Shown: positions 1,568 through 25,400 of the stretch, piece by piece
Layout of the letters: each line of letters opens with the position of its first letter
Numbering within the stretch: position 1 is the first letter of the stretch
IMG/VR virus record: IMGVR_UViG_3300046534_000975
Coordinates: 1 to 27,248 of that record
Origin: a virus
Length of the DNA: 27,248 nt
Reading direction: 5' to 3' (one strand)
The notes under the pieces: generated by a model
Databases searched by the model: none
Told to the model about the DNA's origin: nothing
Seen by the model: the letters and a program-made list of their open reading frames with translations, nothing else
Program-made: the position numbers and the translations under genes

Positions 1568-4500
1568 ATGGATATCAACACAAATTTTATAGCTGGTAAA
1601 ATGAATAAAAGCGTTGATGAACGCTTGCTTCCTCCAGGACAATATGTAGACGCTTTAAATGTAAGACTTGGATCAACAGAAACAACTGAGATAGGGGCTG
1701 TAGAAAACTCAAAGGGAAACACAAAAGTTACAAATATTCTTTACAAAAATGAAGAAATGAGTAACGCTGTTTGTATTGGTTCTTATGCAGACGGTATAAA
1801 TCAAAATATGTATTGGTTTGTTCATGACTCAAATAATTCCAATTCAACTTCAGGAAAGATAGATATGATTCTTTCTTATAACGCATCTACAAATGTTACT
1901 AAATATTTAGTTATATCTCAAACAGTTTTAAATTTTAATTCTACATATTTAATTACAGGTGTAAATTTAATAGGAGACTTATTATTTTTTACAGACAATT
2001 TAAACCCTCCCAGAGTTATAAATATTAATAGAGATTATGCCTACCCTACAACAGAGGATAATTTTACAGAAGAAGATATTTCTTTAATAGTAAAGCCTCC
2101 AGGATTTAGTCAATATGAAAACACTTTACTCTTACCTCCTGTACAAGAATTTGTATTAGCTGCTCCAAAGTTAGTTTTATTTGACACGCCTTCTCAAGAA
2201 GAGAATTACATAAAAGATAAATTTTTATGTTTTGCTTATCGCTTTAGATATTTAGACAATCAATATAGCGCAACGTCTTTATTTACAACTCCTGCATTTG
2301 AGCCAAATGATTTCAAATTAGACTATGATACTTTAACTAATTCTGGAATGGAAAACAGATACAATACTGTTGAAATAACTTTTAGTACAGGGCCACAGAA
2401 TGTAATAGGTATAGATGTATTATACAAAGAGTCAGGTAAGAACACAATATTTTTAATAGAAAAATATAAAAAATCAGAAGAAGGTTGGTCAGATAATTCT
2501 TTTAGATCTATAAACTTTGGAAAGAAAAAAGTATATACTTTACTGGGTGAAGATGAATTGCTAAGGACATTTGATAATGTTCCTTTACTTGCACAAGCTC
2601 AGTCAGTAATGGGTAATAGGGTTATGTTTGGAAACTATACAGACGGACGTAATATGGTAGACGCAGAAAATTTACCTGTTGCGATTGACTACTCTGTTGA
2701 AGTACAAGAGCTTAATGATGAGTTTGTAGCGTTATTAAATCCTACAAGGATTGCTACGTCACAAAATTGGAATATTAGCGCAACACAATTTCAATCTACT
2801 TTAGGCTTTAATACTTTTTACGCAAATACATCATCAGCTAACAATATTATTTTTTCAGGATCAGAATCTATACCTGTAGGTTCTGCCTTTAGATGGGAAA
2901 TACAACTTAGAACTACTTCTACTCAATCTATTACACAAAGTGTTACTGGATTTCCAGACACAGGAGAATATATTTCTTCAACAAGTACTGAACCTATAAC
3001 TTTAGATTTTAATTTTATAACACAAAATTCCTATAACTCTGTAAATGCTATGTTAAATAGCGCAGAATTTTCTGACGCTGTAGGTGTTACAAATTTTCAG
3101 CCAATATCAAATTCAAATAACGGTAACACTTTAACTGATTTATTTAACACAGCAATAGTAGCTCCAGGGCCAAACAACCCTGGTCTGAACGCTTTAAATC
3201 TTTCTCCTTTTATTCAAACAGAACACACTTTAACAGGAATATCTTCTACAACAGTAGACGAAGGGTGGGGATTAGTAATAGCAGGCGATACATTTGATTT
3301 AAAAGTTCCAGCCGTAGAGTATACATTTGTAGATGTTAGCACTAATGTTACAAGTAGATATTATGAATATTTTCAAACTGTAAACAATGGCATAACAGGG
3401 AGTTTAGATACATTATCTAACAGGTTAAGCTTACACAGTAATAGAGATTACAGTGTAGGAATAATATATATGGATGAGTACGGAAGATCGTCAACTGTTT
3501 TAACTAACACAGACAACACAATTCATGTTTCTCCAAAAGGAGCAGAATTTGTTAACAGGTTACAAGTCTCAATTAGTAACCCTCCTCCGTTTTGGGCTAC
3601 AAGATATAAGTTTGCTATAAAACCTTCCGCGACAACATACGACACTATATATATTACTGTTTTTACCAGAGATTTTTTTGATCCTGCTATGTTCTGGTTT
3701 AGATTAGTAGGCCAAGATCAAGCATTAGTATCTGCTGGAGATACTTTAATTGTAAAAGCAGAAAACTTTTTTGTTTTCCCAATAGTAGTTACTCTTGAAG
3801 TTTTAGAAGTAGAACCTAAAGGAAGAGGAGAGATAGATGGAGTTGTGGGAGCTTTAGGAAATAGTCTTCCTGGGTTATATTTTTCAGCAAAACCAACTGG
3901 ATTTGATCCGAGTGATCAAACTAAAATATATCAGTATAATACTAAATCAGCTAAAACAAAATCAACTTCTTGCGGGCCTAATCCTACTGATGATCAGCAA
4001 GTTGTGTATCCAGTTAATGATGGTACTGTAAACTACGCAATCCCCGCTGGTACTGTAATACAAATAGATATGAGGATTACAAGGGGGTCTTATGGCGGAG
4101 GTTTAAACCCTGGAAATCCAGATGATAATGAATCGGTTGATTGGGCATGGGATCAAGAATATATATCTACTGAAGCCTACCCTAATTTTTACGATTGGTT
4201 TGAGGGCCAGCAAATAGATAATTTTGTACAAGGAACAAGAAACTCAGGAGGAAAAGAAATTACAGGTCATTATAATGGAACTATTGAGAATTTTGTACAA
4301 GACATAGGTATTCCTGGAGGATGTTATAATTATTCAGTTCAGTTTTTGGCAGATCCAAATACTGGTTTATTATCTTTAGTTTTAAGTTCAGGAGTTGCAA
4401 GGGGTGGCCCAGGTTTTGACAAAAGACCTGCAAGAACAAGTGTGCAAATAACTGTAATTACAAATGGTGCTGTTGTTGTATTAGAAACGGTGCCAGCGCC

Positions 4501-6679
4501 AGCAGATCCAAATATATATTATGAAGGTTCTGAAAATTTTAATATTGCTTTTGATCCTGTACAAAATAAAAGAATACATTTTGCTAATAAACAAAACCAA
4601 GGCATAGCTACAAATTTACCTGCTATTTGCGATATAGCTTTTGGAAATTGTTATGGCTTTGGAAATGGTGTTGAAAGTTATAAAATATTAGATGAAGCTG
4701 CGCAAAATCAATTTGCTTTAGGTGAAAGAGTGAGCGCGGTATCTTCTCTTCCATATATAGAATCTAATAGAATTGCCTCTGTTACATACAGTGGTATTTA
4801 TAATGGTCAAACAAATTTAAATAACAGTAATGAGTTTAATTTAGCATTAGCAAATTTTAAAGATTGTGAGATAGTGTACGGCCCTATCATGAAATTGTAT
4901 TCGCGTAATACCAATCTACTTGTATTACAAGAAGATAGAATATCTTATATTTTAACAGGAGTTAATTTATTATCTGATGCAGCTGGAGGAGGAGCTATTA
5001 CTTCTATTCCTGAAGTTTTAGCTAATCAAATAGCTCGTACAGAAGAAAACGGTATAAGTTTTAACCCAGAAAGTTTTGCAAGTTTTGGAGATTCTGTATA
5101 TTTTACAGACACAAAAAGAAATGCTGTTTTAAAATTAACTGCAACTGAAAGAGGAGATCTTTTAGAGATTATTTCTGATTTAGGAATGAGATCTTATTTT
5201 AGAGACAACTTTTATCCACAAATAGATACACAAAAGTTAGGAGGCTATGATCCTTATATGGATGAATATGTTTTAAATAACAATCCTATTACTGTTGTAA
5301 ATAAAGCAAACACTTTAGATTGCGGAACTTTAATATCACAAACAAACGCTCCTGATCTTTATGAAGTTGTTGTAGAAATAGGAACTATTGTTGGAAATTC
5401 AACTGTAGATTATTTGTTAGGAGCGGGTTCTGGAGATATAAAAATAACATATACCTGGGAAGGTCTTAATATTAATACAATAGACACTGGAAGCGCTACA
5501 AGTACTAACACAGGAACGTTAACAGATAGTGGTGCAGATTTTATAACTTCTGGAGTGTTGGTAGGCATGGGTGTGCTTAACACAACTCAGGGTACTGTAA
5601 ATGCTCCAAGAACAACTATCACTGGTATAACCTCTGCAACAGAAATAATTTTAGCTAATCCAAATTTTAATTTTTCATCAGGAGATAGCTATATAATACA
5701 ACAAAGAGTAATTCCTGTAATATCTACTGTAACTGTTAACGGAACAAATCCAGGAGGGCAAATATCTATTAATAAAAGTTCTTTATATCCTACATCTATA
5801 ACTTTAAAGGTAGAGAGAGTTTCTGGAACAGATCCTTTGTCTTATCAAATAACTCCTAATTGTGCTGATGCACCAGTTGGATCACTTACTCAAATAGTAC
5901 TGACGTCTTCGCAACAATCAGGTAAAGAATTACATTATGAATATCAATGGAATGATAATACATTCTTTAGTCCTGTTGAGTCTAATTTAGTTAGAGTGCA
6001 ATCAAATCCTTTACAGAGCGTTTCAGCTTTTAATCAGACAACAGGATTGCAGTCACAAGGCATGATACCTTATTTAAACACAAATCATTTAATAAGATCT
6101 AATAAATTAAACACAGATGATTTAGTCTTTAATGTAAACGAAAATAAATTATATATTTTTGCCCAAGGAAATCCTATGTATGCTCCAGGAGCTACAGGAA
6201 CATCAAATGATTTTGACGTAACTAAGTTAGCAGGAAAATCTCCTTTAACACCTATTTTAAACCCTCAAACAGGATTGTATCAAGCGACAAGAAATAATTA
6301 CGGTATGGGTACTTCTACTCCAAATTTAATTGTAGTAACAGATTTAAGAGATGTTTCTTTTGTAAAAATGAGTTATGACCTAACTTCATCTTCAGCTGCT
6401 TGTGCATTGATTGGAAACTGTTCTAACATATTAACAAGCGCAAGAAAAAATTCAAATTATACTGCCTGTGAATTGACTTCAATAGCAATATCTCGTTATA
6501 CAAATGCTATTTCAGTAGCAAACATAGGTGTTGGAGATATTTTATATCAAAATTCTCCTTGTAATTCTAATCAAACTAATTGGACTAATTCAGGTTATTA
6601 TAAAATTGCTGGAGGATTAAATGGAAGAGTTCTTCGGGTGGGAAATGATGGTTTAATAGTTCAAATAACAAATTGTTAA
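1568..6679 (+). CDS. Tail hub/muzzle ('stabilization') protein, main part
   Basis: A 1703-residue protein. Its N-terminus (NTNFIAGKMNKSVDERLLPP, then QYVDALNVRLGS and GAVENSKGN) is the characteristic start of the stabilization/muzzle protein of crAss-like and flavobacterial podophages, functionally equivalent to T7 gp12. This protein forms the distal nozzle of the tail. A beta-propeller-like body follows, with SVMGNRVMFGNYTDGRN near residue 345 and GISFNPESFASFGDSVYFTD near residue 1160. The conserved GGYDPYMDEYV segment ends near residue 1236. About 465 further residues form extra Ser/Thr/Gly-rich beta modules, including GTLTDSGADFITSG near 1315 and a Cys-bounded module with SGYYKIAGG at the very end. 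In related proteins I would expect the GW-SFYSF domain straight after YDPY; here that domain is in the gene at 6870. Many Ile/Val/Tyr residues and no signal peptide fit a virion protein. Confidence 0.82.
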   Translation: MDINTNFIAGKMNKSVDERLLPPGQYVDALNVRLGSTETTEIGAVENSKGNTKVTNILYKNEEMSNAVCIGSYADGINQNMYWFVHDSNNSNSTSGKIDMILSYNASTNVTKYLVISQTVLNFNSTYLITGVNLIGDLLFFTDNLNPPRVININRDYAYPTTEDNFTEEDISLIVKPPGFSQYENTLLLPPVQEFVLAAPKLVLFDTPSQEENYIKDKFLCFAYRFRYLDNQYSATSLFTTPAFEPNDFKLDYDTLTNSGMENRYNTVEITFSTGPQNVIGIDVLYKESGKNTIFLIEKYKKSEEGWSDNSFRSINFGKKKVYTLLGEDELLRTFDNVPLLAQAQSVMGNRVMFGNYTDGRNMVDAENLPVAIDYSVEVQELNDEFVALLNPTRIATSQNWNISATQFQSTLGFNTFYANTSSANNIIFSGSESIPVGSAFRWEIQLRTTSTQSITQSVTGFPDTGEYISSTSTEPITLDFNFITQNSYNSVNAMLNSAEFSDAVGVTNFQPISNSNNGNTLTDLFNTAIVAPGPNNPGLNALNLSPFIQTEHTLTGISSTTVDEGWGLVIAGDTFDLKVPAVEYTFVDVSTNVTSRYYEYFQTVNNGITGSLDTLSNRLSLHSNRDYSVGIIYMDEYGRSSTVLTNTDNTIHVSPKGAEFVNRLQVSISNPPPFWATRYKFAIKPSATTYDTIYITVFTRDFFDPAMFWFRLVGQDQALVSAGDTLIVKAENFFVFPIVVTLEVLEVEPKGRGEIDGVVGALGNSLPGLYFSAKPTGFDPSDQTKIYQYNTKSAKTKSTSCGPNPTDDQQVVYPVNDGTVNYAIPAGTVIQIDMRITRGSYGGGLNPGNPDDNESVDWAWDQEYISTEAYPNFYDWFEGQQIDNFVQGTRNSGGKEITGHYNGTIENFVQDIGIPGGCYNYSVQFLADPNTGLLSLVLSSGVARGGPGFDKRPARTSVQITVITNGAVVVLETVPAPADPNIYYEGSENFNIAFDPVQNKRIHFANKQNQGIATNLPAICDIAFGNCYGFGNGVESYKILDEAAQNQFALGERVSAVSSLPYIESNRIASVTYSGIYNGQTNLNNSNEFNLALANFKDCEIVYGPIMKLYSRNTNLLVLQEDRISYILTGVNLLSDAAGGGAITSIPEVLANQIARTEENGISFNPESFASFGDSVYFTDTKRNAVLKLTATERGDLLEIISDLGMRSYFRDNFYPQIDTQKLGGYDPYMDEYVLNNNPITVVNKANTLDCGTLISQTNAPDLYEVVVEIGTIVGNSTVDYLLGAGSGDIKITYTWEGLNINTIDTGSATSTNTGTLTDSGADFITSGVLVGMGVLNTTQGTVNAPRTTITGITSATEIILANPNFNFSSGDSYIIQQRVIPVISTVTVNGTNPGGQISINKSSLYPTSITLKVERVSGTDPLSYQITPNCADAPVGSLTQIVLTSSQQSGKELHYEYQWNDNTFFSPVESNLVRVQSNPLQSVSAFNQTTGLQSQGMIPYLNTNHLIRSNKLNTDDLVFNVNENKLYIFAQGNPMYAPGATGTSNDFDVTKLAGKSPLTPILNPQTGLYQATRNNYGMGTSTPNLIVVTDLRDVSFVKMSYDLTSSSAACALIGNCSNILTSARKNSNYTACELTSIAISRYTNAISVANIGVGDILYQNSPCNSNQTNWTNSGYYKIAGGLNGRVLRVGNDGLIVQITNC

Positions 6680-6680
6680 T

Positions 6681-6857
6681 ATGGCGGTACTAATAAATAG
6701 ATATTTTGATGGTAATACATTTTGTCAAGCAACTGGTATTTTTACAGATGATAAACTAAGCGTATTTGCCCCTACAGGATATTACGCTTTTGACGGGTAT
6801 GTAAGGTACTGGGATGACAGTACGCAAATTTTAGGCAGTTGCTCTGTATGTCCTTAA
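6681..6857 (+). CDS. Small protein resembling the muzzle's terminal module (58 aa)
   Basis: An ATG one base after the muzzle stop opens a 58-codon frame ending in TAA. It fills almost the whole gap before the next gene. The protein (MAVLINRYFDGNTFCQATG at the start, then PTGYYAFDGYVRYWDD and CSVCP at the end) has the same layout as the last ~70 residues of the muzzle. Both have a first Cys, a short beta segment, a (T/S)GYY core, an aromatic or charged turn and a terminal Cys. It is in the same frame as the gene at 6870, separated by one TAA and a few AT-rich codons, so loss of that stop would fuse them. It is probably a small accessory tail piece or a leftover module from a muzzle duplication. 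No function is known to me. Its position and module likeness support a real gene. Confidence 0.6.
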   Translation: MAVLINRYFDGNTFCQATGIFTDDKLSVFAPTGYYAFDGYVRYWDDSTQILGSCSVCP

Positions 6858-6869
6858 AAAAATAAAATT

Positions 6870-7640
6870 ATGGCAACAAACGAAACATTATCATATAGTG
6901 ACGGGGCTAAAGGTTGGCCTTCTTTTTATTCATTCTTACCAGAATTTATGATGGGAATGAATAGTTTTTTCTATACATTTAAAAATGGAAATATTTATAG
7001 ACATAATACAAATGAAAAAAGAAATGTATATTATGATGTAAAGTATAAATCTAATATTACAGGTGTATTTAATGCATCTCCTTTAGAAATAAAATTATTT
7101 AAAACAATGTCTTTTGAAAGTGATGCTTCTTGGAATGTTACTTCTCTTCTTACTGATTTAAGCACAGGAAGCATGTTAAACACTTACTTTGAACAAAAAG
7201 AAGGAGAGTGGTTTTCTTTTATCAGACAAAATTCTTCAACGATTAATTTTAAATTAAGATCAGCGCATGGAATTGGAGACATATTGTCTACTCCTTCCTT
7301 GATATCTGCAAATTCATACTTATATACTTTCGCTAATCCCATAGGTAATATGATAGATGAAGGAGATGCAATTTTTAAAACTACTACACCTGGTACTGTA
7401 GCTCCTACTAAAACTGGTACTGTTACAAGCGTAGACAACACACTAAATACTATTACTGTAAACACTACAGGTTTTACTCAATTAGTTTTAGCGGGTGACT
7501 ATATACTTTACTATAAAAATGTTGTTGCTGAGTCGCAGGGAGCAAGAGGTTACTTTATGCAATTTACGTTAGAAAATGACAGCTTAGCACCAGTTGAGTT
7601 GTTTTCTGTAGGTAGTAGCATGATGAAAAGTTATCCATAG
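6870..7640 (+). CDS. Detached C-terminal domain of the muzzle protein
   Basis: A 256-residue protein beginning ETLSYSDGAKGWPSFYSFLP, then FFYTFKNGNIYRHNTNEKRN. In crAss-like and flavobacterial muzzle/stabilization proteins I know this as the C-terminal domain of the long chain (a GW-SFYSF-P motif followed by FYTF-G-LY-HN). Here it is a separate cistron with its own ATG behind an AT-rich leader. A conserved-type FKTMSFESDASWNV segment follows, then EGEWFSFIRQ, a Thr/Val-rich beta insertion near residues 170-210 (TGTVTSVDNTLN), and an end GYFMQFTLEND with ELFSVGSS. The piece probably assembles with the 1703-residue protein in the distal tail. Whether both parts come from an ancestral single gene, or another phage group also has them split, cannot be told from this window alone. 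Confidence 0.75.
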   Translation: MATNETLSYSDGAKGWPSFYSFLPEFMMGMNSFFYTFKNGNIYRHNTNEKRNVYYDVKYKSNITGVFNASPLEIKLFKTMSFESDASWNVTSLLTDLSTGSMLNTYFEQKEGEWFSFIRQNSSTINFKLRSAHGIGDILSTPSLISANSYLYTFANPIGNMIDEGDAIFKTTTPGTVAPTKTGTVTSVDNTLNTITVNTTGFTQLVLAGDYILYYKNVVAESQGARGYFMQFTLENDSLAPVELFSVGSSMMKSYP

Positions 7641-7660
7641 ATTTTATTATCTTTGCAGTA

Positions 7661-8062
7661 ATGTCATTTAATATACTACCTCTTACTTCTAAAGATTATG
7701 ATGATGTTTTAGTAGGCTGGTGGAAAGAGTGGAGATGGACTCCCCCGACAAAAGATTTTTTACCCGAAACAGGGTACATGGTTTATTATAAGGATAAACC
7801 TATTTGCGCAGGGTATATGTACATAACAAATTCTAATGTAGTTTTATTAGAATGGATTATATCTAATTTTAAATTTAAAAACAAAAAAATTAGAAAAGAA
7901 GCGTTATTGATGTTAATACAATTTATCACTTCTTTAGCGACAGGGACAGGGAAAAAGTATGTTTATTCAATACTAAAAAGTAAAAGTTTAATTGATTTAT
8001 ATACAGAACTTGGTTATAAAAAAGGTGATGAAAATGGACAAGAAATGATTAAAATATTATAA
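7661..8062 (+). CDS. GNAT-fold-like protein, positional counterpart of T7 gp13
   Basis: A 133-residue protein with the order of a GNAT N-acetyltransferase. An N-terminal LTSKDYDDVLVGWWKEW segment is followed by beta strands with PICAGYMYI. A basic stretch (FKFKNKKIRKEALLMLIQFI) lies where the acetyl-CoA binding loop and helix are expected. A C-terminal SLIDLYTELGYKKGD matches the usual 'a--lYeklGF' motif. The R/Q-x-x-G-x-G/A acetyl-CoA signature is not clearly preserved, so catalytic activity is doubtful. T7 gp13 is 138 aa, has been linked to the GNAT fold, and lies between the tail tube genes and gene 14, exactly as here. A role in virion assembly is therefore as likely as acetylation. It starts 20 bases after the preceding stop, and its stop is one base before the next ATG. 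Confidence 0.62.
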   Translation: MSFNILPLTSKDYDDVLVGWWKEWRWTPPTKDFLPETGYMVYYKDKPICAGYMYITNSNVVLLEWIISNFKFKNKKIRKEALLMLIQFITSLATGTGKKYVYSILKSKSLIDLYTELGYKKGDENGQEMIKIL

Positions 8063-8063
8063 T

Positions 8064-9143
8064 ATGGCAATAGGAACAGCAGCACTTATAGGAGCTGGTA
8101 TAAAAGCAGGAAGTGGATTTATGAGCTTTCAGCAAGCTTCGCAAGTAAAAGACTTAAGGAAAAATGCAGACAAAAGTGCGGCTAAATATTTAGCAGAAGC
8201 AAGTGACACTATAAATAAAGATTATTTTGCAAGCCTAAAGGTTCCTATGGAAGCTTATGAGGCAGAGTTGTTAAGTAATTTACAAGCTTCTACTACTGCT
8301 ATAAGCGCATTATCAGAGGCTGGGTCAAGAGAGCTTATAGGTGGTGTAGGAAGAGTAAACGCTGTACAGAGAGAAGCTGGAGAGTCTGCAAGGTTAGCGC
8401 AGCAAAAAGAGTTATTTGCTTTAGATAAAATGAAGGCAGAAAATAAGGATTCTATGAATCAGCAACAATTACAGCTTCAAGTTGCTGGTGAGCAAGACAG
8501 AATAAAAAGGAATATAGACTTTGATGAGCAAAGAGCTTCATTACAAAAGCAAGGATTTACATCGTTGACTGGTGCTGCTACTCAGCTTGTTGGAGGTCTT
8601 TCTGACACACCAATATCAAAGGAAGATAAAAAATTACAAAGTTTATTAAAAGAAAACAATATAAGCGCTTCAGAATATGGAGCGAATCCAGAGAAATATA
8701 AATTTATATTTGACCAAAAGAAACCTTTTTCTGCACTTGAAAGCTCTCCTTCTGCTTTTAGTATGCTTTCTCCGCAAGCTGGGCCAGGAAATGATCCTCG
8801 TCCAGGTATGTTACCTATAACAAGTAATGCGGCAAGATCAGTTTCTGGGCCAGGAAATGATCCTTATTTAAATATGTTGCCTGGTGTAGGTGGATTTACA
8901 ACCCCAGGACAAAGAAGAGGAACAGGGCCAATGAACATACAGCCAAATCAATTTGGTGGTGTTGGCGCTCCTACAGGTATATCAGGTTTAAATATTCAGG
9001 GACAGCAAGATCCGCGTAATGCTTTTGCTAATCAGGGTTATATGGGATTTGACCTAAATCAAATGGCAAACCCTTTAGATTACCCTGGTGTTTTTCCACA
9101 GCCAAGCATGGATGATTTATTAAAGAAATACGGTGTTAAATAA
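8064..9143 (+). CDS. Internal virion / DNA-ejection protein (T7 gp14-like)
   Basis: A 359-residue protein starting with a short Gly/Ala hydrophobic segment (AIGTAALIGAGIKAGSGFM). A long, almost uninterrupted Gln/Ala/Glu-rich helical region runs to about residue 165, with NADKSAAKYLAEASDT and AREAGE-like heptads. From about residue 230 it becomes Gly/Pro/Asn/Gln-rich and probably disordered, with a repeated GPGNDP...MLP unit. A small hydrophobic start plus coiled coil is the usual look of the first ejection protein of short-tailed phages (T7 gp14), which enters the outer membrane of the host. It follows the GNAT-like gene and precedes two larger proteins of the same kind. No enzymatic motif is visible. 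The assignment rests on gene order and composition, not on recognisable homology. Confidence 0.58.
   Translation: MAIGTAALIGAGIKAGSGFMSFQQASQVKDLRKNADKSAAKYLAEASDTINKDYFASLKVPMEAYEAELLSNLQASTTAISALSEAGSRELIGGVGRVNAVQREAGESARLAQQKELFALDKMKAENKDSMNQQQLQLQVAGEQDRIKRNIDFDEQRASLQKQGFTSLTGAATQLVGGLSDTPISKEDKKLQSLLKENNISASEYGANPEKYKFIFDQKKPFSALESSPSAFSMLSPQAGPGNDPRPGMLPITSNAARSVSGPGNDPYLNMLPGVGGFTTPGQRRGTGPMNIQPNQFGGVGAPTGISGLNIQGQQDPRNAFANQGYMGFDLNQMANPLDYPGVFPQPSMDDLLKKYGVK
8781..8882 (+). repeat. Two 36-bp direct repeats coding GPGNDP-x3-MLP
   Basis: Copies at 8781-8816 and 8847-8882, 66 bases apart, both begin gggccaggaaatgatcct and end in atgtt(a/g)cct. They encode GPGNDPRPGMLP and GPGNDPYLNMLP in the disordered C-terminal half of the 359-aa internal virion protein. 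A third, weaker likeness (TGPMNIQPNQFGG) follows. Confidence 0.75.
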
Positions 9144-18074: not shown

Positions 18075-18093
18075 GATTATTTAATAATATCTT
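18072..18093. terminator. Possible weak bidirectional terminator at convergent junction
   Basis: The last + gene stops at 18074 and the last - gene stops at 18077, leaving two bases between them. Overlapping both stop codons is a short inverted repeat, AAGAT (18073-18077) with ATCTT (18089-18093), around an AT-rich core. The helix is only five base pairs, so this is a weak candidate. Nothing better lies near the junction. Confidence 0.25.
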
Positions 18094-18475
18094 CTATGCT
18101 GGTAACCTGGTCTTCAGCTGATCTATTCCTATTGTATTGATTTACAGCTTCTTTATTAAAATTCATCTTATAATTTTTTCTTTCAGCCTCTAACTTGTAA
18201 TAAGAAAATGCTTGCATGCCAACAACATGAGCATCAGTAGGAAAATAATATTTCCATCCCTTTGACCTTCCTCTGTTAATGTAATAACAAAAAGCTACAG
18301 CTAATTTTCCTGTATTTTTTTTAAAATTTATTACAGCTGAATCATCAGATGTTGGAATAATTTCATCTACAAAAAAAGTTTCGTTATTTAAATTTCCTTG
18401 CCTGGCATTATTAGAAAACCTTTCTGCTACAGTATTGCAAAACACTTGTAATTCTTTTGCTCTCTCTTTATTCAT
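18077..18475 (-). CDS. Hypothetical protein (132 aa)
   Basis: A 132-residue protein, last gene of the - strand block. It begins MNKERAKELQVFCNTVAERF, a charged helix. A beta-like centre follows (FFVDEIIPTSDDSAVINFKK) with a basic aromatic patch (YINRGRSKGWKYYFPTDAHV). It ends in a helical, Asn/Arg-rich tail with NQYNRNRSAEDQVTS. The mixture suggests a small globular nucleic-acid-associated protein, but I recognise no family. Twelve bases separate it from the gene upstream, so it is likely in the same transcript as the nucleases and helicases. Confidence 0.68.
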   Translation of the reverse strand: MNKERAKELQVFCNTVAERFSNNARQGNLNNETFFVDEIIPTSDDSAVINFKKNTGKLAVAFCYYINRGRSKGWKYYFPTDAHVVGMQAFSYYKLEAERKNYKMNFNKEAVNQYNRNRSAEDQVTSIEDIIK

Positions 18476-18487
18476 ATTTTAATTTTA

Positions 18488-18679
18488 TTATATTTCATCG
18501 CTTAATGATTGAATTAAATCAGCCAAAATTTTTATTAAGTCTTGAGCTTTCTTTTTAGCATTTTCATGCTCTCTATCCATTAAGTCTTCATAAAGATTAT
18601 CACCAAAACTATGTATACTGTTAGAAATATACTTAATATGATTAATAGTTGATTGGTCTTCTGGTGCAATTCGCGGCAT
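18488..18679 (-). CDS. Small helical hypothetical protein (63 aa)
   Basis: A 63-residue protein (MPRIAPEDQSTINHIKYISN at the start, AQDLIKILADLIQSLSDEI at the end), almost entirely amphipathic helix, with no Cys and no membrane segment. The ATG is preceded by a 38-base spacer with a small TTTG...CAAA inverted repeat, and no Shine-Dalgarno sequence is visible. A helical hairpin or dimerising regulator would fit, but no function can be assigned. Confidence 0.6.
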   Translation of the reverse strand: MPRIAPEDQSTINHIKYISNSIHSFGDNLYEDLMDREHENAKKKAQDLIKILADLIQSLSDEI

Positions 18680-18717
18680 TTACGTTTGGTTTTATCAAAT
18701 ATAAAAAAATAAATGAC

Positions 18718-19050
18718 TTATTCTAAATTTTTAGAATTTTTTATATAACAATTTAAATTGATCAAATCTAAATATTCATCCATAGTAATTAAAGTAACAT
18801 CTGTTAAGATGGTAGGATCTGTTTTGGTATTAATAATTTCTAATGCAAAAGTTATAGGATCTCCAATAGTGTCAATAACTATACCCCCAACAATGTGAGA
18901 TCGTAACTCATTACTTGGAAGATTTGGTAAGTTTTTTTTAATATATTTTCCAATTTTTAATGCTGTATATAAATCTAATTCCTGTAAGCTCTCAACAAAA
19001 AAATCGTCAAAATCAAAATCAACCTCTGTATACTTCTGTCCTAACCCCAT
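18718..19050 (-). CDS. Hypothetical acidic protein (110 aa), overlaps VRR-NUC gene
   Basis: A 110-residue acidic protein starting MGLGQKYTEVDFDFDDFFVE; the rest is mixed, with a helix (LDLYTALKIGKYIKKNLPNL) and beta-like segments (GGIVIDTIGDPITFALEI). The ATG lies 32 bases inside the upstream nuclease gene in another frame. No later in-frame ATG gives a sensible start, so I keep this one. The overlap suggests coupled translation with the nuclease, perhaps as partner or inhibitor, but that is inference. Similarity to known families is not apparent. Confidence 0.6.
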   Translation of the reverse strand: MGLGQKYTEVDFDFDDFFVESLQELDLYTALKIGKYIKKNLPNLPSNELRSHIVGGIVIDTIGDPITFALEIINTKTDPTILTDVTLITMDEYLDLINLNCYIKNSKNLE

Positions 19051-19258
19051 GCTCTTTTAATTGTTTTAATCTAAATTCTTGAAGCCTTGATAATTTACCA
19101 TTTGGCTTTTTTATTTCTGAAAACAAAACATTAGAATTTGGAGGAATTGCTAATAAATCTGGTATACCATTCTTATTAGTTATGGTTAATTTGATTACAT
19201 AATACCCTTCAGATTCTAATTGAAAAATCCTTTTTTCCTGAATTTGTTGTTCAGTCAT
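19019..19258 (-). CDS. VRR-NUC domain nuclease (79 aa)
   Basis: A 79-residue protein that is essentially one VRR-NUC domain, a minimal PD-(D/E)XK nuclease fold common in phages. Visible motifs are the N-terminal helix (QQIQEKRIFQLESEGYYVIK), a GIPDLLAI motif with the catalytic Asp, FSEIKKPNGKLS with the E-x-K pair, and QEFRLKQLKEHGVRTEVY giving the conserved Gln helix and last strand. Members of this family act as structure-selective nucleases on branched DNA. It starts one base after the stop of the SNF2-type helicase, a pairing known from other phages and suggesting the two act together on replication or recombination intermediates. Confidence 0.85.
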   Translation of the reverse strand: MTEQQIQEKRIFQLESEGYYVIKLTITNKNGIPDLLAIPPNSNVLFSEIKKPNGKLSRLQEFRLKQLKEHGVRTEVYRG

Positions 19259-19259
19259 G

Positions 19260-20489
19260 TTACAAATCTAACAAATCTCTTTTAAAATGCGTAAGGGTAT
19301 AATCTTTCTTTTTAACAACAGTTTTGTATATCTCGTTTTCAATTCCGTCATTACTAAAAATCCAATATATTTTATTTGTTGCTCTATTTTTTGTAGTCAT
19401 CCTATCTCTACTTTGCCAGTAAGATGTAGCGCTAAAATCTATGTTATAATAAACTAATGCTGAAGCTTCTTTTAAACTGATACCTTCTCTTCCACTAACA
19501 ATCTGAAGAGCAATACTTTTTTCTGTAGCATTGAATTCTTCTAAATCGTTTGTAATCATATCTTTATAGATTTTTTTTATAGCATTATATTCTTCTTTAA
19601 ACTTATAAAATATACCTATCTTTTGATCTTTAAAAAATTTATTAATAAATTTAGCTTTTGTAGTGTCTACCACCATAGACTTTCCGCTTTCAAATTTTAC
19701 AGTTCCAGAACATAATTGATGTACTTTTGACATAAGTTTTACGCCTGTGTCTGCAAGAACAATTTCTCCTTTTCCTTCTATAACCCTGTCTTTTTTAATT
19801 TTTTTTATTAAAGACAAACAAACAGAACTTAAGTTAACATAAAGTATTTTTTCCTCTATAGTAGTTTTAAAGCCTGCCATTTTTTGAGAATAATTTATTT
19901 TAAAAGGACTCATTTCATCAATTATACTTTTTAAACCCTTAGTGTAATCATTAATATAAATACTATTTATAAATTTTTGCTTTACTTTAATATGTACTTT
20001 ACTAAAAGCATAAAAGTTTTTAAACTTATTAAAAGGATTGTTTGGAATACCATATACTTGATGATACATTTGACTATATGATTCTGGCGTAGGCGTTCCG
20101 CTTAAAAGTATTACAAAAGGATTTGATCTATTTATAATCTCCCTTACTTGTTTCGCTCTTTTATTTGGTTTTGGAAAAGCTCCTAATGAATGGGATTCAT
20201 CACAGATCACAACATCCCAATCTGTTTGCTTTACCTTATGTAATGATTCATAATTTATTACTTCTAAAAAATAATTAGGATCGTATTTATTGTAATCATC
20301 AACAATACTGCTTATAGCTTTTTTCTTTGTAATAAATAAAACAGAATTAATTTTTAAATTATTACATATTCCTAAGCTTGTTAGTGTCTTACCAGTTCTA
20401 ACTTCCATGGCCAGATAAATAAACCCATGATCTTTTATTATCTCAGTTCCTTTGTCAATAATGTTTTTTTGATACTCTCTAAACTTCAT
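19260..20489 (-). CDS. SNF2-type superfamily 2 DNA helicase
   Basis: A 409-residue SF2 ATPase. Motif I is EVRTGKTLTSLG (near residue 35). Motif II is DESHSLGAF in CDESH context, motif III is LLSGTPTPESY, and the C-terminal lobe has VSGREGISLKEASALVYYN followed by SYWQSRDRM, which corresponds to motif VI (Q--dR--R in SNF2 proteins). It likely remodels or unwinds DNA during phage replication or recombination. I chose the ATG at 20489, giving MKFREYQKNII, because conserved SF2 sequence (REYQ, the Q-motif region) begins there and the overlap with the primase-helicase is then only 11 bases. An ATG at 20519 would add ten residues with a larger overlap. The VRR-NUC nuclease follows after one base. 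Confidence 0.85.
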   Translation of the reverse strand: MKFREYQKNIIDKGTEIIKDHGFIYLAMEVRTGKTLTSLGICNNLKINSVLFITKKKAISSIVDDYNKYDPNYFLEVINYESLHKVKQTDWDVVICDESHSLGAFPKPNKRAKQVREIINRSNPFVILLSGTPTPESYSQMYHQVYGIPNNPFNKFKNFYAFSKVHIKVKQKFINSIYINDYTKGLKSIIDEMSPFKINYSQKMAGFKTTIEEKILYVNLSSVCLSLIKKIKKDRVIEGKGEIVLADTGVKLMSKVHQLCSGTVKFESGKSMVVDTTKAKFINKFFKDQKIGIFYKFKEEYNAIKKIYKDMITNDLEEFNATEKSIALQIVSGREGISLKEASALVYYNIDFSATSYWQSRDRMTTKNRATNKIYWIFSNDGIENEIYKTVVKKKDYTLTHFKRDLLDL

Positions 20490-22866
20490 ATTTTTCTCGG
20501 AATAATATCCATCTACCACCTAAGTCTCTGCCTTCTTCTGGGTTATTGTTGTATTTGTATACGCAATAACTATGTAACCATTTTTGAAATCCTATACGCG
20601 AAATGGTAAACTTAGATTTAGGAGCAAAGTCTGGGTTCTCCTCTATAAAATCACTATATAATTCTGTTTTGTAAACCCTGTTGTCTGGTCTTAATTTAAT
20701 ATTTTCATTTGAATCATTTAATAACCCGCACCACTCAACAAACTCATGACAGGTTTCTGCTGAAAGCTTTCTAATTTTTAAATTAACAAACTCACTTTTA
20801 ACTAATCCTGTATGTAAATACATTTGCAAGCAGTTAATCATGTAGTTATCAAACTGACACCATTCTTCATCATCCCAGTCTCCAAACATTAGTTTTCCAA
20901 ACTCAACTAATGGTGTAAATTCTTTTGTGTAATGCTGAGATAATTCTAACTCCCATTTTCTTCTTTCAAAACTTGTACCTTTTCCTTTTATTGCATAGTT
21001 AGTTGTTATAGCTATTTTAGGAGACTTACTGAAAGGAATCATAATTGCATCACGATTTTTTTTCTCCAGGGTCAATCCTTCAGTTACAACGCTAAATAGT
21101 CTTTCAAAGTCAAATGCTTTTTTTACATCATCAAAACAAAGTATCTGTGTATCTGCTGAAACAAGTTGATAAGCAAAAGACCTTTCAAATGTAAAAGACT
21201 TTCCGTCTATAACAACTAACTTCTTCATCTTTGCTAATCCATTCATAAACAAACCTTTACCTGTGCCTCCTTCTGGATTATCAGATATAACCTCGTCATT
21301 TAAAATAGTAGCAGGACAATATGAAAGATTTTTATATCCATGCATTAAAAAACCTATTGTCGACTCCATAGAAGAAATTCTACTTTCATCTTCTCCACAG
21401 ATATTATGTATAAAATTTTTGTAATCACAATTTTTTACATTACAAAGTGTAAAATCTCTATCTATTACATGGTCTTTCCAAACGTAACCCCCTAAATCTA
21501 AATAATCAATTAGGTTTATTTCTTTATGTGTAATTTTTACAGCACAATTCATAAAATATAAATAAGCTGTGTCTTTAGTGTCTTCAATAAAGAATACGTC
21601 TATTGAAGAAAGTAGAGTTAAAAATTCTTCTCTAAAATACCTGGTATGTTCTGCAAAGTAATTATATACGCTAATATCATCTATCTCTAATAGGTATTCT
21701 AAAACAAAATCTTTAATTTCTTTTTCTGATGTATGATCTATAAGATTATTAATTACCCTTACAAAGACATAACTTTTGCTTCCCTCTGGATTAAATTTAT
21801 AAAAGCCGCTATCCTCTAAAAAAGTTTTAAAATATATATGTATAATTTTTATAACTCCTTTTTCGCTTTTAGTCCAAAATTTGTTTTCTGTCTGCTCTTC
21901 TTCTATTCTTGTAATAACCTTATCAACACTCTCTTCGTCAATTTTATCACTTATTATATGACATTTAATTTCATTTTTATCTACACCTTTTCTTAATTGG
22001 TTTTTAATTAAGTTTACCTTTTCTTCATCTTCATAATATTTAGACCCAAAATTGTGTGTATTAGCATAGGCAGAATTAATTGTTCTTAAAATCTCATTTC
22101 TATTAAAATCTTTTGAATCAAAATTACTCATTACATATTCGGCTAATGTCTTAGGTACACCAAAATCATTAAAAGATGCCGCCAGGATATAAACATTATT
22201 ATTTCTTTCCCCGTTTTTTAATCCATATTTTTTCTCCCACCATTTAGTTAATATTTCTACAATTTTATTCTCATCTGTTAATGGAATGGTAGGTTTGTCT
22301 TTATGTGTTACTTTCTCTACATATTCTTGCTCATCTATTTTATCCCAAATGCTTGAGTTTTTTGATATATAAATTAAAGGATCGTAAGACTCGTAACAAA
22401 CCCTTGAAACATTTTTTGATGTTGTATCAAAATGCTCAGAGTTTAAATATTTATTTAATGATGCAAAATAATTTTTATGATTCCCAATGTCTTCTGGAAT
22501 TTTAACTAATGCTTTTAATCCTTTACCACTGGGAGATATAAAGACAGAATAAATGTATTTGTTTTTTGAAAGCCTTTCTTTTTCCTGTAGCAAATCTTTA
22601 CTTGACTTATAACCATCAAAGTCTAAGCATATTAGCCCGCTATGTTCTATTAATGAATTATCATTTCTTTTATTAAATTTACCGCTAAAGCATATTGCTG
22701 GCAGTCTTTTTTTTAAATCATTTCTTTCTTCTTTGTCTTTTGATTTTCTTATTTCTTTAACTAATTCTTTAGATGATCCCTCTTCTATTCTCTTTAGAAC
22801 TAATTTAACATCTCTATAAAAAGGCTGAGATGTATCTTTTATGTCTTTGAATATTGTTACTTGCAT
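20479..22866 (-). CDS. BT4734-type primase fused to SF3 helicase
   Basis: A 795-residue replication protein with three parts. Residues 1-170 match the BT4734/VirE N-terminal domain, related to archaeo-eukaryotic primases: GLICLDFDGY carries the acidic pair, and SPSGKGLKALVKI and TTSKNVSRVCYESYDP follow. Residues about 200-280 look like a primase C-terminal (PriCT) helical domain (NGERNNNVYILAASFNDFGV). From about 490 comes a superfamily 3 helicase: Walker A NPEGGTGKGLF near 530, Walker B TQILCFDDVKKAF near 575, and the SF3 sensor SPKIAITTNYAIKGKG near 610. The C-terminus has a winged-helix-like end (SRIGFQKWLHSYCVYK). Such primase-helicases start and drive phage or plasmid replication. The gene follows a 105-base gap holding a long RNA-type hairpin, so its expression may be controlled separately. 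Confidence 0.88.
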   Translation of the reverse strand: MQVTIFKDIKDTSQPFYRDVKLVLKRIEEGSSKELVKEIRKSKDKEERNDLKKRLPAICFSGKFNKRNDNSLIEHSGLICLDFDGYKSSKDLLQEKERLSKNKYIYSVFISPSGKGLKALVKIPEDIGNHKNYFASLNKYLNSEHFDTTSKNVSRVCYESYDPLIYISKNSSIWDKIDEQEYVEKVTHKDKPTIPLTDENKIVEILTKWWEKKYGLKNGERNNNVYILAASFNDFGVPKTLAEYVMSNFDSKDFNRNEILRTINSAYANTHNFGSKYYEDEEKVNLIKNQLRKGVDKNEIKCHIISDKIDEESVDKVITRIEEEQTENKFWTKSEKGVIKIIHIYFKTFLEDSGFYKFNPEGSKSYVFVRVINNLIDHTSEKEIKDFVLEYLLEIDDISVYNYFAEHTRYFREEFLTLLSSIDVFFIEDTKDTAYLYFMNCAVKITHKEINLIDYLDLGGYVWKDHVIDRDFTLCNVKNCDYKNFIHNICGEDESRISSMESTIGFLMHGYKNLSYCPATILNDEVISDNPEGGTGKGLFMNGLAKMKKLVVIDGKSFTFERSFAYQLVSADTQILCFDDVKKAFDFERLFSVVTEGLTLEKKNRDAIMIPFSKSPKIAITTNYAIKGKGTSFERRKWELELSQHYTKEFTPLVEFGKLMFGDWDDEEWCQFDNYMINCLQMYLHTGLVKSEFVNLKIRKLSAETCHEFVEWCGLLNDSNENIKLRPDNRVYKTELYSDFIEENPDFAPKSKFTISRIGFQKWLHSYCVYKYNNNPEEGRDLGGRWILFREKYEV

Positions 22867-22886
22867 TTAATTTAATTGAGTGTAAA

Positions 22887-22965
22887 AAGGAGAGAGAGTT
22901 AGAAAGAAAAATTTTCAAAATCTAATTGAGTTATTTTTTGGACGTTGTGTCCGCTCCCTCTCCTT
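22887..22965 (-). promoter_or_regulatory. Candidate structured leader RNA upstream of primase-helicase
   Basis: Read on the - strand, AAGGAGAGGGAG (22965-22954) pairs with CTCTCTCTCCTT (22898-22887) over twelve consecutive base pairs. One of these is G-U, so the helix is perfect only in RNA made from this strand. Just inside the 5' arm is a small hairpin, GGAC-ACAAC-GTCC (22952-22940). The rest of the ~55-base loop is A/T-rich. The 3' arm runs straight into a short U run (CCTTTTTACAC), and the primase ATG is about 20 bases further. It could be a terminator with an odd long loop, a leader regulator, or a processed small RNA. It lies in one of the two longest intergenic gaps of the window. Confidence 0.5.
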
Positions 22966-22971
22966 ATGGTT

Positions 22972-23232
22972 TTAAAAAGGTAAATCTGGTGATGACTGAC
23001 TTTCTGTTGCAGCTTCCTTCTTAGCCTCTGGCTTCCAAGTGTCTACTGCTACATAATGAGTCTTTCCATATTGATCGGCTTCTCTTTTTTGTTGTACGAT
23101 AAGCTTTATATATTTCTTACCGTTATAATCAAAGACATGCTCTTGAGGTAAATCAGATAAGCAAACTGAACAAGCAACTTGATTACCTTCAAACTTAGAA
23201 ACACCTGAACCTACATATATTTTTTCTTCCAT
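22972..23232 (-). CDS. Small SSB-like protein with acidic DLPF tail
   Basis: An 86-residue protein. The start is set at MEEKIYVGSG because it follows the preceding stop by one base and conserved-looking sequence begins there; the 26 extra upstream codons overlap another gene. The body has YVGSGVSKFEGNQVACSVCL, a beta segment FDYNGKKYIKLIVQQKR and YGKTHYVAVDTWKPE. A Ser/Glu-rich linker follows and the last residues are SSPDLPF. An acidic tip ending in (D/I/L)PF is the partner-binding tail of bacterial SSB proteins, and the gene sits between recombination and primase genes. The core is too short and unlike a normal OB-fold SSB (about 110 residues) to be sure. A single-strand DNA-binding or SSB-mimic role is an inference. 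Confidence 0.6.
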   Translation of the reverse strand: MEEKIYVGSGVSKFEGNQVACSVCLSDLPQEHVFDYNGKKYIKLIVQQKREADQYGKTHYVAVDTWKPEAKKEAATESQSSPDLPF

Positions 23233-23233
23233 T

Positions 23234-23386
23234 TTAATGTATTTTAATTTCTTGCTCCAAAATTTCAAAAATGTCTGCCAATAACTTATGTTTTTGGCGC
23301 GCATCCTCACAAGTAGTTGGAACTTCTACTGTGAATATTTCCCTTTTCCACTGGAAAAAAGAAATAATTTTTTTAAAGAACCTCAT
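23234..23386 (-). CDS. Small hypothetical protein between exonuclease and SSB-like gene
   Basis: A 50-residue protein, MRFFKKIISFFQWKREIFTV then CEDARQKHKLLADIFEILEQ. A basic, aromatic start and a helical end; no domain is recognised. Alternative in-frame ATGs at 23395 and 23419 would lengthen it by 3 or 11 residues; I chose 23386 because the overlap with the exonuclease end is smallest (14 bases). Its stop is one base before the SSB-like ATG, which argues that it is a real operon member, although it is short. Confidence 0.5.
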   Translation of the reverse strand: MRFFKKIISFFQWKREIFTVEVPTTCEDARQKHKLLADIFEILEQEIKIH

Positions 23387-24101
23387 GATGAACATAGGTG
23401 CTAATTTCTTCTGTCGCAACTTTGCTAAAGAATTTATTATATATATGAATCGCTTGCTCTACTTTTGCTTTTCCTCTCTGTAAAAACTCTGGAGAAGTTG
23501 TAAATACCGCTAACTGCAAAGTAGATTTGTCTATAACATAAAACTCCATAGGTAAACCAAAAAGCTCCTGGTATATATAAGCCTGGCTATCATAGTTATA
23601 TCTGTATGCGCTCTGTTTAAACTTATTTAAATCAGAAGTAGTTTTTAAATCTATAATTTTATCTGTACAAACAATATCAGCTTTTCCCTTCCACCATTCA
23701 TCGTGAATAACTTTGACAAGCGGAACTTCATATTGATTTGTTTTGTCGTATATAGCCTCAAACATATCCATGTTTCCCTTCATTGACCCTATAACTTTGT
23801 CAAGATTTTCTTTTTCTTTTTGCAGCAGCATCATCTCTCCTGTTTCTTCTGCTAACTCTTTATATGCTTTAGAATTTCTACTTGCTACATCTACTATTTT
23901 AAATGAAGGAAGCTTTTCTGGCTCTAACATAGCTACATGGAAGTACCTACCCTCAAGCATTGCTTTAGTTTGCTCCTTTGGCTGCCTAAAGCCCTTAGGA
24001 TCGTTTACTAAAGTGTATATATCTGAATTTGATAACCATTGTCTTCCGTATTCCCCGTAGTACAATTTGTCATCTTGTAGTTTATTTATTATATCTTCCA
24101 T
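23373..24101 (-). CDS. PD-(D/E)XK exonuclease (RecE/Cas4-like, phage recombination)
   Basis: A 242-residue nuclease. After a helical start (WLSNSDIYTLVNDPKGFR) comes the G--H motif in LEGRYFHVAMLEPEKL. The catalytic core follows: WWKGKADIVCTDKIIDLKTT with the Asp and the D-x-K triad, then DSQAYIYQELFG with the QxxxY motif. This order is typical of RecE-type/Cas4-like exonucleases in phages, which process double-strand ends to leave single strands. Its ATG shares one base with the stop of the DUF1071 annealing protein gene (TAATG), so the pair is translated together and should act as an exonuclease-annealase recombination system. It is full length for small phage members of this family. Confidence 0.83.
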   Translation of the reverse strand: MEDIINKLQDDKLYYGEYGRQWLSNSDIYTLVNDPKGFRQPKEQTKAMLEGRYFHVAMLEPEKLPSFKIVDVASRNSKAYKELAEETGEMMLLQKEKENLDKVIGSMKGNMDMFEAIYDKTNQYEVPLVKVIHDEWWKGKADIVCTDKIIDLKTTSDLNKFKQSAYRYNYDSQAYIYQELFGLPMEFYVIDKSTLQLAVFTTSPEFLQRGKAKVEQAIHIYNKFFSKVATEEISTYVHHEVL

Positions 24102-24694
24102 TATAAATGTTTTGAAAGTTCTTTTTTAACTACTGCCTTTAACTTATATTTTGTTTCTAATTGAGCTACAATTTTAGGCAATCCCAATTTTTTATTAGCA
24201 GCAACATAATTTAAAACTTTATCCCAATGTAAATCTCCAATGTCTAATGTAATATGCACTGGCTTAGCAGGAGCAGGTGCTGGTGGCTTAGCTATATCAA
24301 CAAGGTCTTCGCCTTTAAATATTGATATTCCTAATCCATGCATAGCAATAGCCTTTGCGGTAGATCTTTGAATTGCAGTATTTACATCCATTGACGTAAT
24401 TTTTTCAAGAGGAATAGAGTTATTTCTGTAATCCATTATAGGAAGATAGTCAATATGCTCAATGTCCTCTGGATCTTGCCAAACCGTAATTCCTACCTTT
24501 ACAGATGCAGTTTTTCCGTCAGTAAAATAGTTTAAACCCGTATGCTCACTTTCATACACTGTTCTATTAGCATCTGGATGATTTTCTTTTAATAATGCCC
24601 AGGCATTTGCCCATGAAAGGTAATTAAACTTCCCTTTTTTTTCTGCCATTTGTTTTACGTTGATGGCTGACAACTTTTTAAAATAATTTTCCAT
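24101..24694 (-). CDS. DUF1071 single-strand annealing protein (Sak3-like)
   Basis: A 197-residue protein whose first ~130 residues fit the DUF1071 family, phage single-strand DNA annealing proteins distantly related to Rad52/Sak. Visible elements are KKGKFNYLSWANAWALLKEN (the hallmark 'YLSWA-AW' segment), then ASVKVGITVW, LPIMDYRNNSIP and STAKAIAMHGLGISIFKGED. A Pro/Ala linker (KPPAPAPAKPV) joins a small C-terminal helical part ending VVKKELSKHL, which may contact a partner. Its gene is directly coupled to the exonuclease. Together they would support recombination-dependent replication or repair of the phage genome. The ATG lies 17 bases inside the end of the upstream gene. Confidence 0.83.
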   Translation of the reverse strand: MENYFKKLSAINVKQMAEKKGKFNYLSWANAWALLKENHPDANRTVYESEHTGLNYFTDGKTASVKVGITVWQDPEDIEHIDYLPIMDYRNNSIPLEKITSMDVNTAIQRSTAKAIAMHGLGISIFKGEDLVDIAKPPAPAPAKPVHITLDIGDLHWDKVLNYVAANKKLGLPKIVAQLETKYKLKAVVKKELSKHL

Positions 24695-25091
24695 TTTTGT
24701 TATTTAATTTAATTAGTTTTTGTGTAAAAAAAGAATACTTATTCATAACAAATTCCCGTTTTGTTTTAAGATTCTTAATGAACTTGTCATTCTTTCTACT
24801 GTTTACTTCCTCCTTCATTTTTTGCTCTATGATTTGTAACTTTCTTTTATTGTTGTTTATACCCATAAGCAAACATCCCACCTTCCATCCATTCTTGTAA
24901 AACAATTTATATTCTTCTATTGTAATCTCTTGAAAATAATCTCCATTTTTAGAGCAATTTAATATTTCTGTTTTACTTGAAAATTTTTGTAATTTAAAAC
25001 CATTGTCTATTAAAATCTCTCCGTTTCTTTTAACTATATGTATGGGAGAATTTTCTAATGCCTGGTTGTATAAATCAGTAAGATTATACAT
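24678..25091 (-). CDS. Hypothetical basic protein (137 aa)
   Basis: A 137-residue protein with two parts. Residues 1-75 are mixed: NSPIHIVKRNGEILIDNGFK, then FSSKTEILNCSKNGDYFQEI and EYKLFYKNGWKVGCLLMGIN, a pattern seen in small Bacteroidota phage proteins of unknown role. Residues 76-137 are a very basic helix (NNNKRKLQIIEQKMKEEVNS onward), plausibly nucleic-acid binding or a coiled coil. It starts directly after the stop of the DnaA-like gene and overlaps the annealing protein gene by 17 bases. I do not recognise a family. Confidence 0.68.
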   Translation of the reverse strand: MYNLTDLYNQALENSPIHIVKRNGEILIDNGFKLQKFSSKTEILNCSKNGDYFQEITIEEYKLFYKNGWKVGCLLMGINNNKRKLQIIEQKMKEEVNSRKNDKFIKNLKTKREFVMNKYSFFTQKLIKLNNKNGKLF

Positions 25092-25400
25092 TTAATTTTG
25101 CAATCTTAATTTACTTGATATTGTATCTACAACATATTTATAGTCTGGATCGCTATCAACATAGTTTTTTGCTTTTTTATATCCATGCATTATTGTAGAA
25201 TGATCAACAGGCAAACCATTCTCCTCCATAAATCTTTTTATATAGGATAATCTAATAGGTCTTTCTCTTGCTAAAAAATACAACATCTGTCTTGCCTCAA
25301 CTATTTCTCTTTTTCTGGTCTTAGAAAACATCTCTCCTAAGGTTAAATGGAATTTTTCTGCTATAGCATCAGCATAGGCATCAAATATATCTTTTTTCAT
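25092..25400 (-). CDS. Stand-alone DnaA domain-IV-like DNA-binding protein
   Basis: A 102-residue protein matching the C-terminal DNA-binding domain of DnaA (Bac_DnaA_C). It shows EARQMLYFLARERPIRLSYI, where the RQ-A-YL helix is expected, and VDHSTIMHGYKKAKNY, which mirrors the DnaA signature DHTTVLHA--K. The AAA+ ATPase part of DnaA is absent. An additional N-terminal helix (DAYADAIAEKFHLTLGEMFS) covers the region just before domain IV. Such proteins could bind DnaA boxes in host or phage DNA, either to recruit the replication machinery or to compete with host DnaA. One base separates it from the DUF3310 gene upstream; the next gene begins directly after its stop. Confidence 0.8.
   Translation of the reverse strand: MKKDIFDAYADAIAEKFHLTLGEMFSKTRKREIVEARQMLYFLARERPIRLSYIKRFMEENGLPVDHSTIMHGYKKAKNYVDSDPDYKYVVDTISSKLRLQN

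Follow-up and report, generated by a model that had tools for sequence, protein, structure and literature searches.

The muzzle (nozzle) is usually described as the conserved single-chain gatekeeper of crAss-like phages. In the virus DNA analysed here (positions 1 to 27,248 of the IMG/VR record IMGVR_UViG_3300046534_000975; hereafter the window, 27,248 nt in all), the parts of that protein are met in more than one gene, which raises the question of whether the muzzle is truly made from separate chains and, if so, what the DNA between them does. We consider it probable that the nozzle of this phage consists of two chains, opened at the point that corresponds to the T7 fibre dock, and that the opening houses an exchangeable adhesin cassette, reduced here to a putative docking domain.

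Muzzle domains on separate genes

A sequence-only reading of the window had placed a hub gene, a 58-aa gene and an independent gene at 6870 in a row, and the open reading frames are found in exactly this layout:

1568–6679 (+): muzzle large chain (hub), 1703 aa, TAA stop; PF25731 crAss_MUZ N-terminus, propeller and crass region, YDPY segment, then approximately 460 extra residues
5306–6676 (+): hub C-terminal extension, residues approximately 1247–1703; predicted beta-sandwich domains
6419–6676 (+): hub terminal module of approximately 85 residues, traced with an HMM built from hub C-termini; recurs in the C-terminal parts of the longer middle-gene proteins of relatives
6681–6857 (+): middle gene, 58 aa, TAA stop; corresponds, without further parts, to the conserved N-terminal domain of a family that is otherwise larger and variable
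6870–7640 (+): muzzle small chain, 256 aa; carries crAss_MUZ_C and an additional beta-domain (residues approximately 136–217); probably the ring-joining/platform piece

In Pfam, hub residues 4–161 match PF25731 crAss_MUZ (8.3e-9, 34.5 bits, curated cut-off 27), a match limited to this stretch of the hub, and residues 50–121 of the 256-aa product match PF25729 crAss_MUZ_C (1.8e-13, 51.2 bits, cut-off 27). The two muzzle domains thus reside on separate products, as expected from the claim that the muzzle is divided into separate cistrons, and the identity of the 6870 product as the muzzle C-terminus, which had been put forward as refutable, is upheld by the PF25729 match. The hub also matches phrog_14478 (7.7e-196), and the small chain aligns with single-chain muzzle homologues, its GW-SFYSF motif occupying residues 15–22. 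The YDPY segment lies at hub residue 1227, with approximately 470 residues remaining before the hub stop, and the interval of 1597 nt from the YDPY segment to the GW segment takes in approximately 460 residues of the hub, the whole 58-aa gene and the beginning of the 256-aa gene, close to the about 465 extra residues plus a 58-aa gene of the earlier reading. Searches of PDB sequences with the hub and with the small chain gave no meaningful match.

Directly behind the small chain, at 7661–8062 (+), lies a 133-aa gene (phrog_17252). In MW202828 the corresponding position carries a gene annotated as an N-terminal acetyltransferase subunit; an enzyme-like gene appears fixed behind the muzzle. On the opposite strand, 18077–25400 (−) carries a replication/recombination module that looks ordinary, with a helicase, a BT4734-like primase, an exonuclease VIII-like protein, a Sak single-strand annealing protein and a DnaA C-terminal HTH protein.

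Spread of the two-chain muzzle

The 256-aa protein retrieved 80 IMG/VR loci as the close-relative set, of which 77 have a recognisable hub and are informative; all 77 are split. In a muzzle of the crAss001 gp44 type both domains belong to one polypeptide, and in the window and these 77 relatives they belong to two genes; we therefore call the arrangement a two-chain muzzle variant, not a crAss001-type muzzle. The sequences show that the split is fixed in the whole clade of the window. Both muzzle halves are recorded as entering virions in a distant split relative, Cellulophaga phage phi18:3 (KC821620), where the large gp114 and the small gp115 each carry the GenBank note "annotation based on experimental MS/MS proteomics analysis"; for that phage, the question that the sequence-only reading had directed to virion mass spectrometry is already answered on the strength of this note.

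After further searches, classification with HMMs of the three core segments yielded a redundant set of 223 loci, 179 split and 44 single-chain at this junction. The YDPY-to-GW spacer spans 590–7730 nt in the split loci (n = 179), meaning that the split is always accompanied by inserted coding DNA. Among single-chain loci it measures 3–459 nt in 42 of 44 and approximately 3.3 kb in the other two, L125 and L127, whose single chains of about 2800 aa or more hold some 1100 extra residues between YDPY and GW with no chain break. This site therefore takes up inserts in cut and uncut chains alike.

A quick tree of 84 representatives, calculated from core segments alone, gathers the main split group on one 53-row branch (SH-aLRT 93; not starred), groups the Pachyviridae split pair (phi13:2 type and L137) among single-chain phages and places L129/L152 apart from the main split group. 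With its modest node support, this tree suggests that the split arose at least twice, the Pachyviridae origin being probably separate. Maribacter phage Panino (L004, PP540027) was considered as a further split case and rejected, its break falling elsewhere, inside the conserved region at approximately window-hub residue 1112. The Panino muzzle (4822–8735) is annotated as two ORFs whose frames overlap at approximately 7641–7662, likely the result of a frameshift or sequence error.

The two-chain muzzle is typical of a large group of aquatic crAss-like phages. It is partly present in public records already, as pairs of 'structural proteins', and no paper describing a split muzzle was found in the openly licensed literature. 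For the named split relatives, the database records give either Pachyviridae or Caudoviricetes alone, and the order Crassvirales is not listed; the window itself is a 27-kb virus record.

The DNA between the halves

The conserved domain of the middle genes has the alignment consensus YYxDGxxFxxATxVYTDxALTTxAPDGxYxxGxxxRQQxxGVL...C. It stands alone, as a gene of 55–66 aa, in the nearest kin of the window and in the L013–L018/L022 group; other relatives in the close set have middle proteins of 146–637 aa, and L023, L028, L031 and L032 carry multiple tandem copies. The 58-aa gene of the window is, judged by this alignment, the middle family shrunk to its conserved front domain, a bare putative docking or anchor domain. 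Among the closest relatives, dN/dS is approximately 0.05–0.26 for the 58-aa gene and 0.03–0.18 for the 256-aa gene, values low enough to indicate that both are proteins under constraint.

An HMM of the middle domain matches 129 of the 179 split loci, leaving 50 without a match to the approximately 55-aa domain, and 0 of 41 single-chain loci; the matches always fall between the muzzle halves or in the hub C-terminus. When viral contigs were searched for the domain alone, using one member sequence as the query, 63 loci were recovered, all with muzzle genes adjoining: 54 are flanked by MUZ on the upstream side and by MUZ_C on the downstream side, 8 follow MUZ on a contig that ends at most 2.6 kb beyond the middle domain, and 1 is cut at the 5′ side with MUZ_C downstream. 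The single-member query found no relative in bacterial and archaeal genomes, a search with few patterns that reaches close relatives only. The C-terminus of the window hub gave no significant match to the middle-domain profile (whole-sequence E 0.018, best domain 0.09, in a one-sequence search), the middle proteins matched no receptor-binding family, and their C-terminal parts (C-parts) had no match in any domain library searched.

Several loci depart from the simple three-gene order. Cassettes of three to four genes lie between the halves in the distant split locus L118 (846, 136, 293 and 87 aa) and in L124 and L132, and in the split loci L102 and L103 the small chain has an N-terminal extension of approximately 250 residues. 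In MW202828 (L001), the 183-aa middle gene at 7442–7993 is annotated as a 'putative glycosidase'. That name is doubtful, because the product has no match in Pfam, NCBIfam or PHROGs and begins with the muzzle middle domain.

The hub extension is likewise absent from single-chain relatives, in which the GW motif follows almost directly after YDPY. It is predicted to consist of beta-sandwich domains, with good confidence over most of its length: the AlphaFold2 model of the hub C-terminal part (m658ef163cee4) has pLDDT values mostly of 80–90 at model residues 210–260 and 345–664. Jelly-roll-type matches to this model were confined to model residues 208–397 (VIA-align; highest Z 12.1, rmsd 2.2 over 102 residues); they indicate a shared fold, to which we attach no functional meaning. 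Foldseek with the same model returned nothing at E ≤ 0.001. The HMM of the terminal module of approximately 85 residues has 125 matches in middle genes and 104 in hubs; the downstream region, MUZ_C, single-chain muzzles and the opposite strand gave no match in the loci examined. For most of the clade, these profile matches show that the junction DNA uses two modules, of approximately 55 aa (the middle domain) and approximately 85 aa, that do not occur elsewhere in these loci.

Turnover was compared in pairs of loci with long middle proteins on both sides, and identities were divided by the longer sequence, so that length differences enter the values. At a core identity of at least 0.9 (19 pairs), mean identities are 0.84 for the middle N-domain, 0.60 for the middle C-part, 0.78 for the hub extension and 0.88 for the small chain; at 0.8–0.9 (50 pairs), the corresponding means are 0.79, 0.40, 0.63 and 0.83. 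The pair L170/L176 combines a core identity of 0.90 with 0.81 in the N-domain, 0.19 in the C-part (102 versus 344 residues) and 0.91 in the small chain. As measured by these identities, the distal parts of the junction DNA are shown to turn over faster than anything around them. A constant anchor joined to a fast-changing distal part is the pattern of phage receptor-binding proteins, and from this pattern we infer a similar function.

An unlikely but serious alternative is a neutral split, namely a tolerated break in an exposed inter-domain loop, with genes accumulating in an insertion-safe gap and having no exchange function. The break does fall between domains, L125 and L127 hold approximately 3.3 kb at the same place in an unbroken chain, and the Pachyviridae lineage is split yet has no middle gene, all of which such a history would accommodate. 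It fits less well with a middle domain that is restricted to the junction, with the module that middle genes and hub extension have in common, with purifying selection on the 58-aa gene, and with a C-part that diverges far faster than the N-domain at a nearly constant core, in the manner of host-range determinants.

Probable position of the small chain in the nozzle

The C-terminus of the T7 nozzle protein builds the platform that contacts the adaptor ring, and the fibre dock sits between the propeller and this platform, where an accessory domain on the outer surface helps to hold the fibres; three strands of the T7 nozzle fold are supplied by the N-terminus (PMC6702177). In the SU10 nozzle the chain takes the same path through blade 1 as in T7 (PMC9509320), and the ring-joining domain and propeller of crAss001 resemble their T7 counterparts (PMC10172136). 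The distal crass domain of crAss001 is formed by insertions within IG2, at residues 453–904 and 940–1012 (PMC10172136), well before MUZ_C. Because MUZ_C is C-terminal to the propeller, it should by analogy with T7 and SU10 be a ring-proximal platform piece and not the distal tip. By the same analogy, the insert would lie at the sequence position equivalent to the T7 fibre dock.

When the small chain was modelled alone with AlphaFold2 from 28 sequences, the mean pLDDT was 50.7 and only residues approximately 136–217 were confident. A poor solo fold of this kind fits an obligate partner and would equally fit a thin alignment. A fold search with the model found only generic small beta-barrels (Z < 7, residues approximately 127–226).

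The sequence-only reading had taken the separate piece for the distal tip of the tail, detachable so as to permit a different copy number or exchange of the tip. The small chain is indeed a separate gene with a homologue in phi18:3 virions, but the topology of the T7, SU10 and crAss001 nozzles takes the C-terminus to the ring-proximal platform, the distal domain being elsewhere, and the small chain nearly equals the core in conservation (0.88 versus 0.92 identity in the closest pairs). A detachable tip is therefore very improbable. The idea of exchange is lost for the MUZ_C chain itself and survives for the cassette between the halves, and a small chain that completes the ring-joining domain would be expected at a copy number of 1:1 with the hub.

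Reading frames at the junction

As the earlier reading had noted, the 6681 and 6870 frames of the window are identical, with one TAA plus 12 nt between them. Among the 69 distinct split loci, the middle gene and the MUZ_C gene share a frame in 15 (less than one-third), so that the agreement in the window, although real, is a matter of chance and carries no information. The middle gene ends with TAA in 66 of these loci, TAG in 2 and TGA in 1, and in the eight junctions compared the small gene starts at an ATG of its own, behind a short gap that is mostly A/T-rich. The proposed test of an assembly error, a search for close relatives with a single chain, found none among the 77 informative loci. 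An assembly error, or stop-codon readthrough or recoding that fuses 6681 and 6870 into one product, is in keeping with the common frame and single TAA of the window and yet is scarcely credible in view of the split in 77 contigs from many metagenomes, the infrequent frame match, the range of stops and the separate ATG.

Proposed role of the junction cassette

The gene organization and the turnover described above allow us to set out how a two-chain nozzle with an adhesin cassette could work. The muzzle would be made from two essential chains, broken where the beta-propeller gives way to the ring-joining/platform domain. Though not joined to it by a peptide bond, the small chain would bind the large one, probably in a 1:1 ratio within a hexamer, and would thereby complete the platform that contacts the tail ring. 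The middle protein and the additional hub domains may face outward from the nozzle at the place of the T7 fibre dock, with the approximately 55-aa domain docking the middle protein on the nozzle and the C-terminus of the middle protein binding the host. With the small chain as its own cistron, adhesin genes could be swapped between the two chain ends while the essential fold is left undisturbed. Short middle genes lack a variable part, which excludes an adhesin role for the 58-aa protein of the window; in this phage, the middle protein without its adhesive part may serve as a cap, a spacer or a partner of the hub extension.

Whether this extends to aquatic crAss-like phages in general, with the MUZ–MUZ_C interval as a dedicated receptor-binding exchange cassette in which the approximately 55-aa domain docks interchangeable adhesins and the platform is a separate chain, seems to us evenly balanced. 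If so, host range could be changed by gene swaps inside what elsewhere is one essential protein, host-range determinants would reside in the nozzle itself, beyond the tail fibres alone, and the approximately 55-aa domain would serve as a marker by which the variable part could be located in metagenomes. The availability of split (phi18:3, phi13:2) and unsplit (phi38:1) flavophage isolates makes the assembly of the split form testable.

Comparison with known systems

The crAss001 muzzle gp44 (PDB 7qok, 7qol, 8ckb) shares its two Pfam domains and their order with the window. It is one chain of 1371 aa in which MUZ ends at 1235 and MUZ_C occupies 1244–1333, whereas the window has two chains with approximately 460 extra residues and a gene between the domains. 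The phi38:1 and elemo phages have muzzles homologous over hub and MUZ_C, again as one chain (gp097 in phi38:1), and their YDPY-to-GW gaps are 15 nt and 57 nt, respectively, as against 1597 nt in the window. In the Pachyviridae, Cellulophaga phages phi18:3, phi13:2, phi19:3 (Baltivirus) and phi46:3 (Bacelvirus) like the window combine a large chain bearing a long extension with a separate MUZ_C gene (for example, phi13:2 gp120 and gp121); unlike the window they have no middle gene, and the phi13:2 extension contains a Big_9/cadherin-like domain. The Manatee Spring podovirus ctfjg026 (MW202828) shares with the window the large chain, a middle gene with the same domain and a separate MUZ_C gene, the middle gene being 183 aa long versus 58 aa in the window. 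The T7 gp12 and SU10 gp17 nozzles, likened to the window by topology and not by sequence, have a propeller and a C-terminal platform that we take to work alike; both are single chains and carry their accessory material within the chain.
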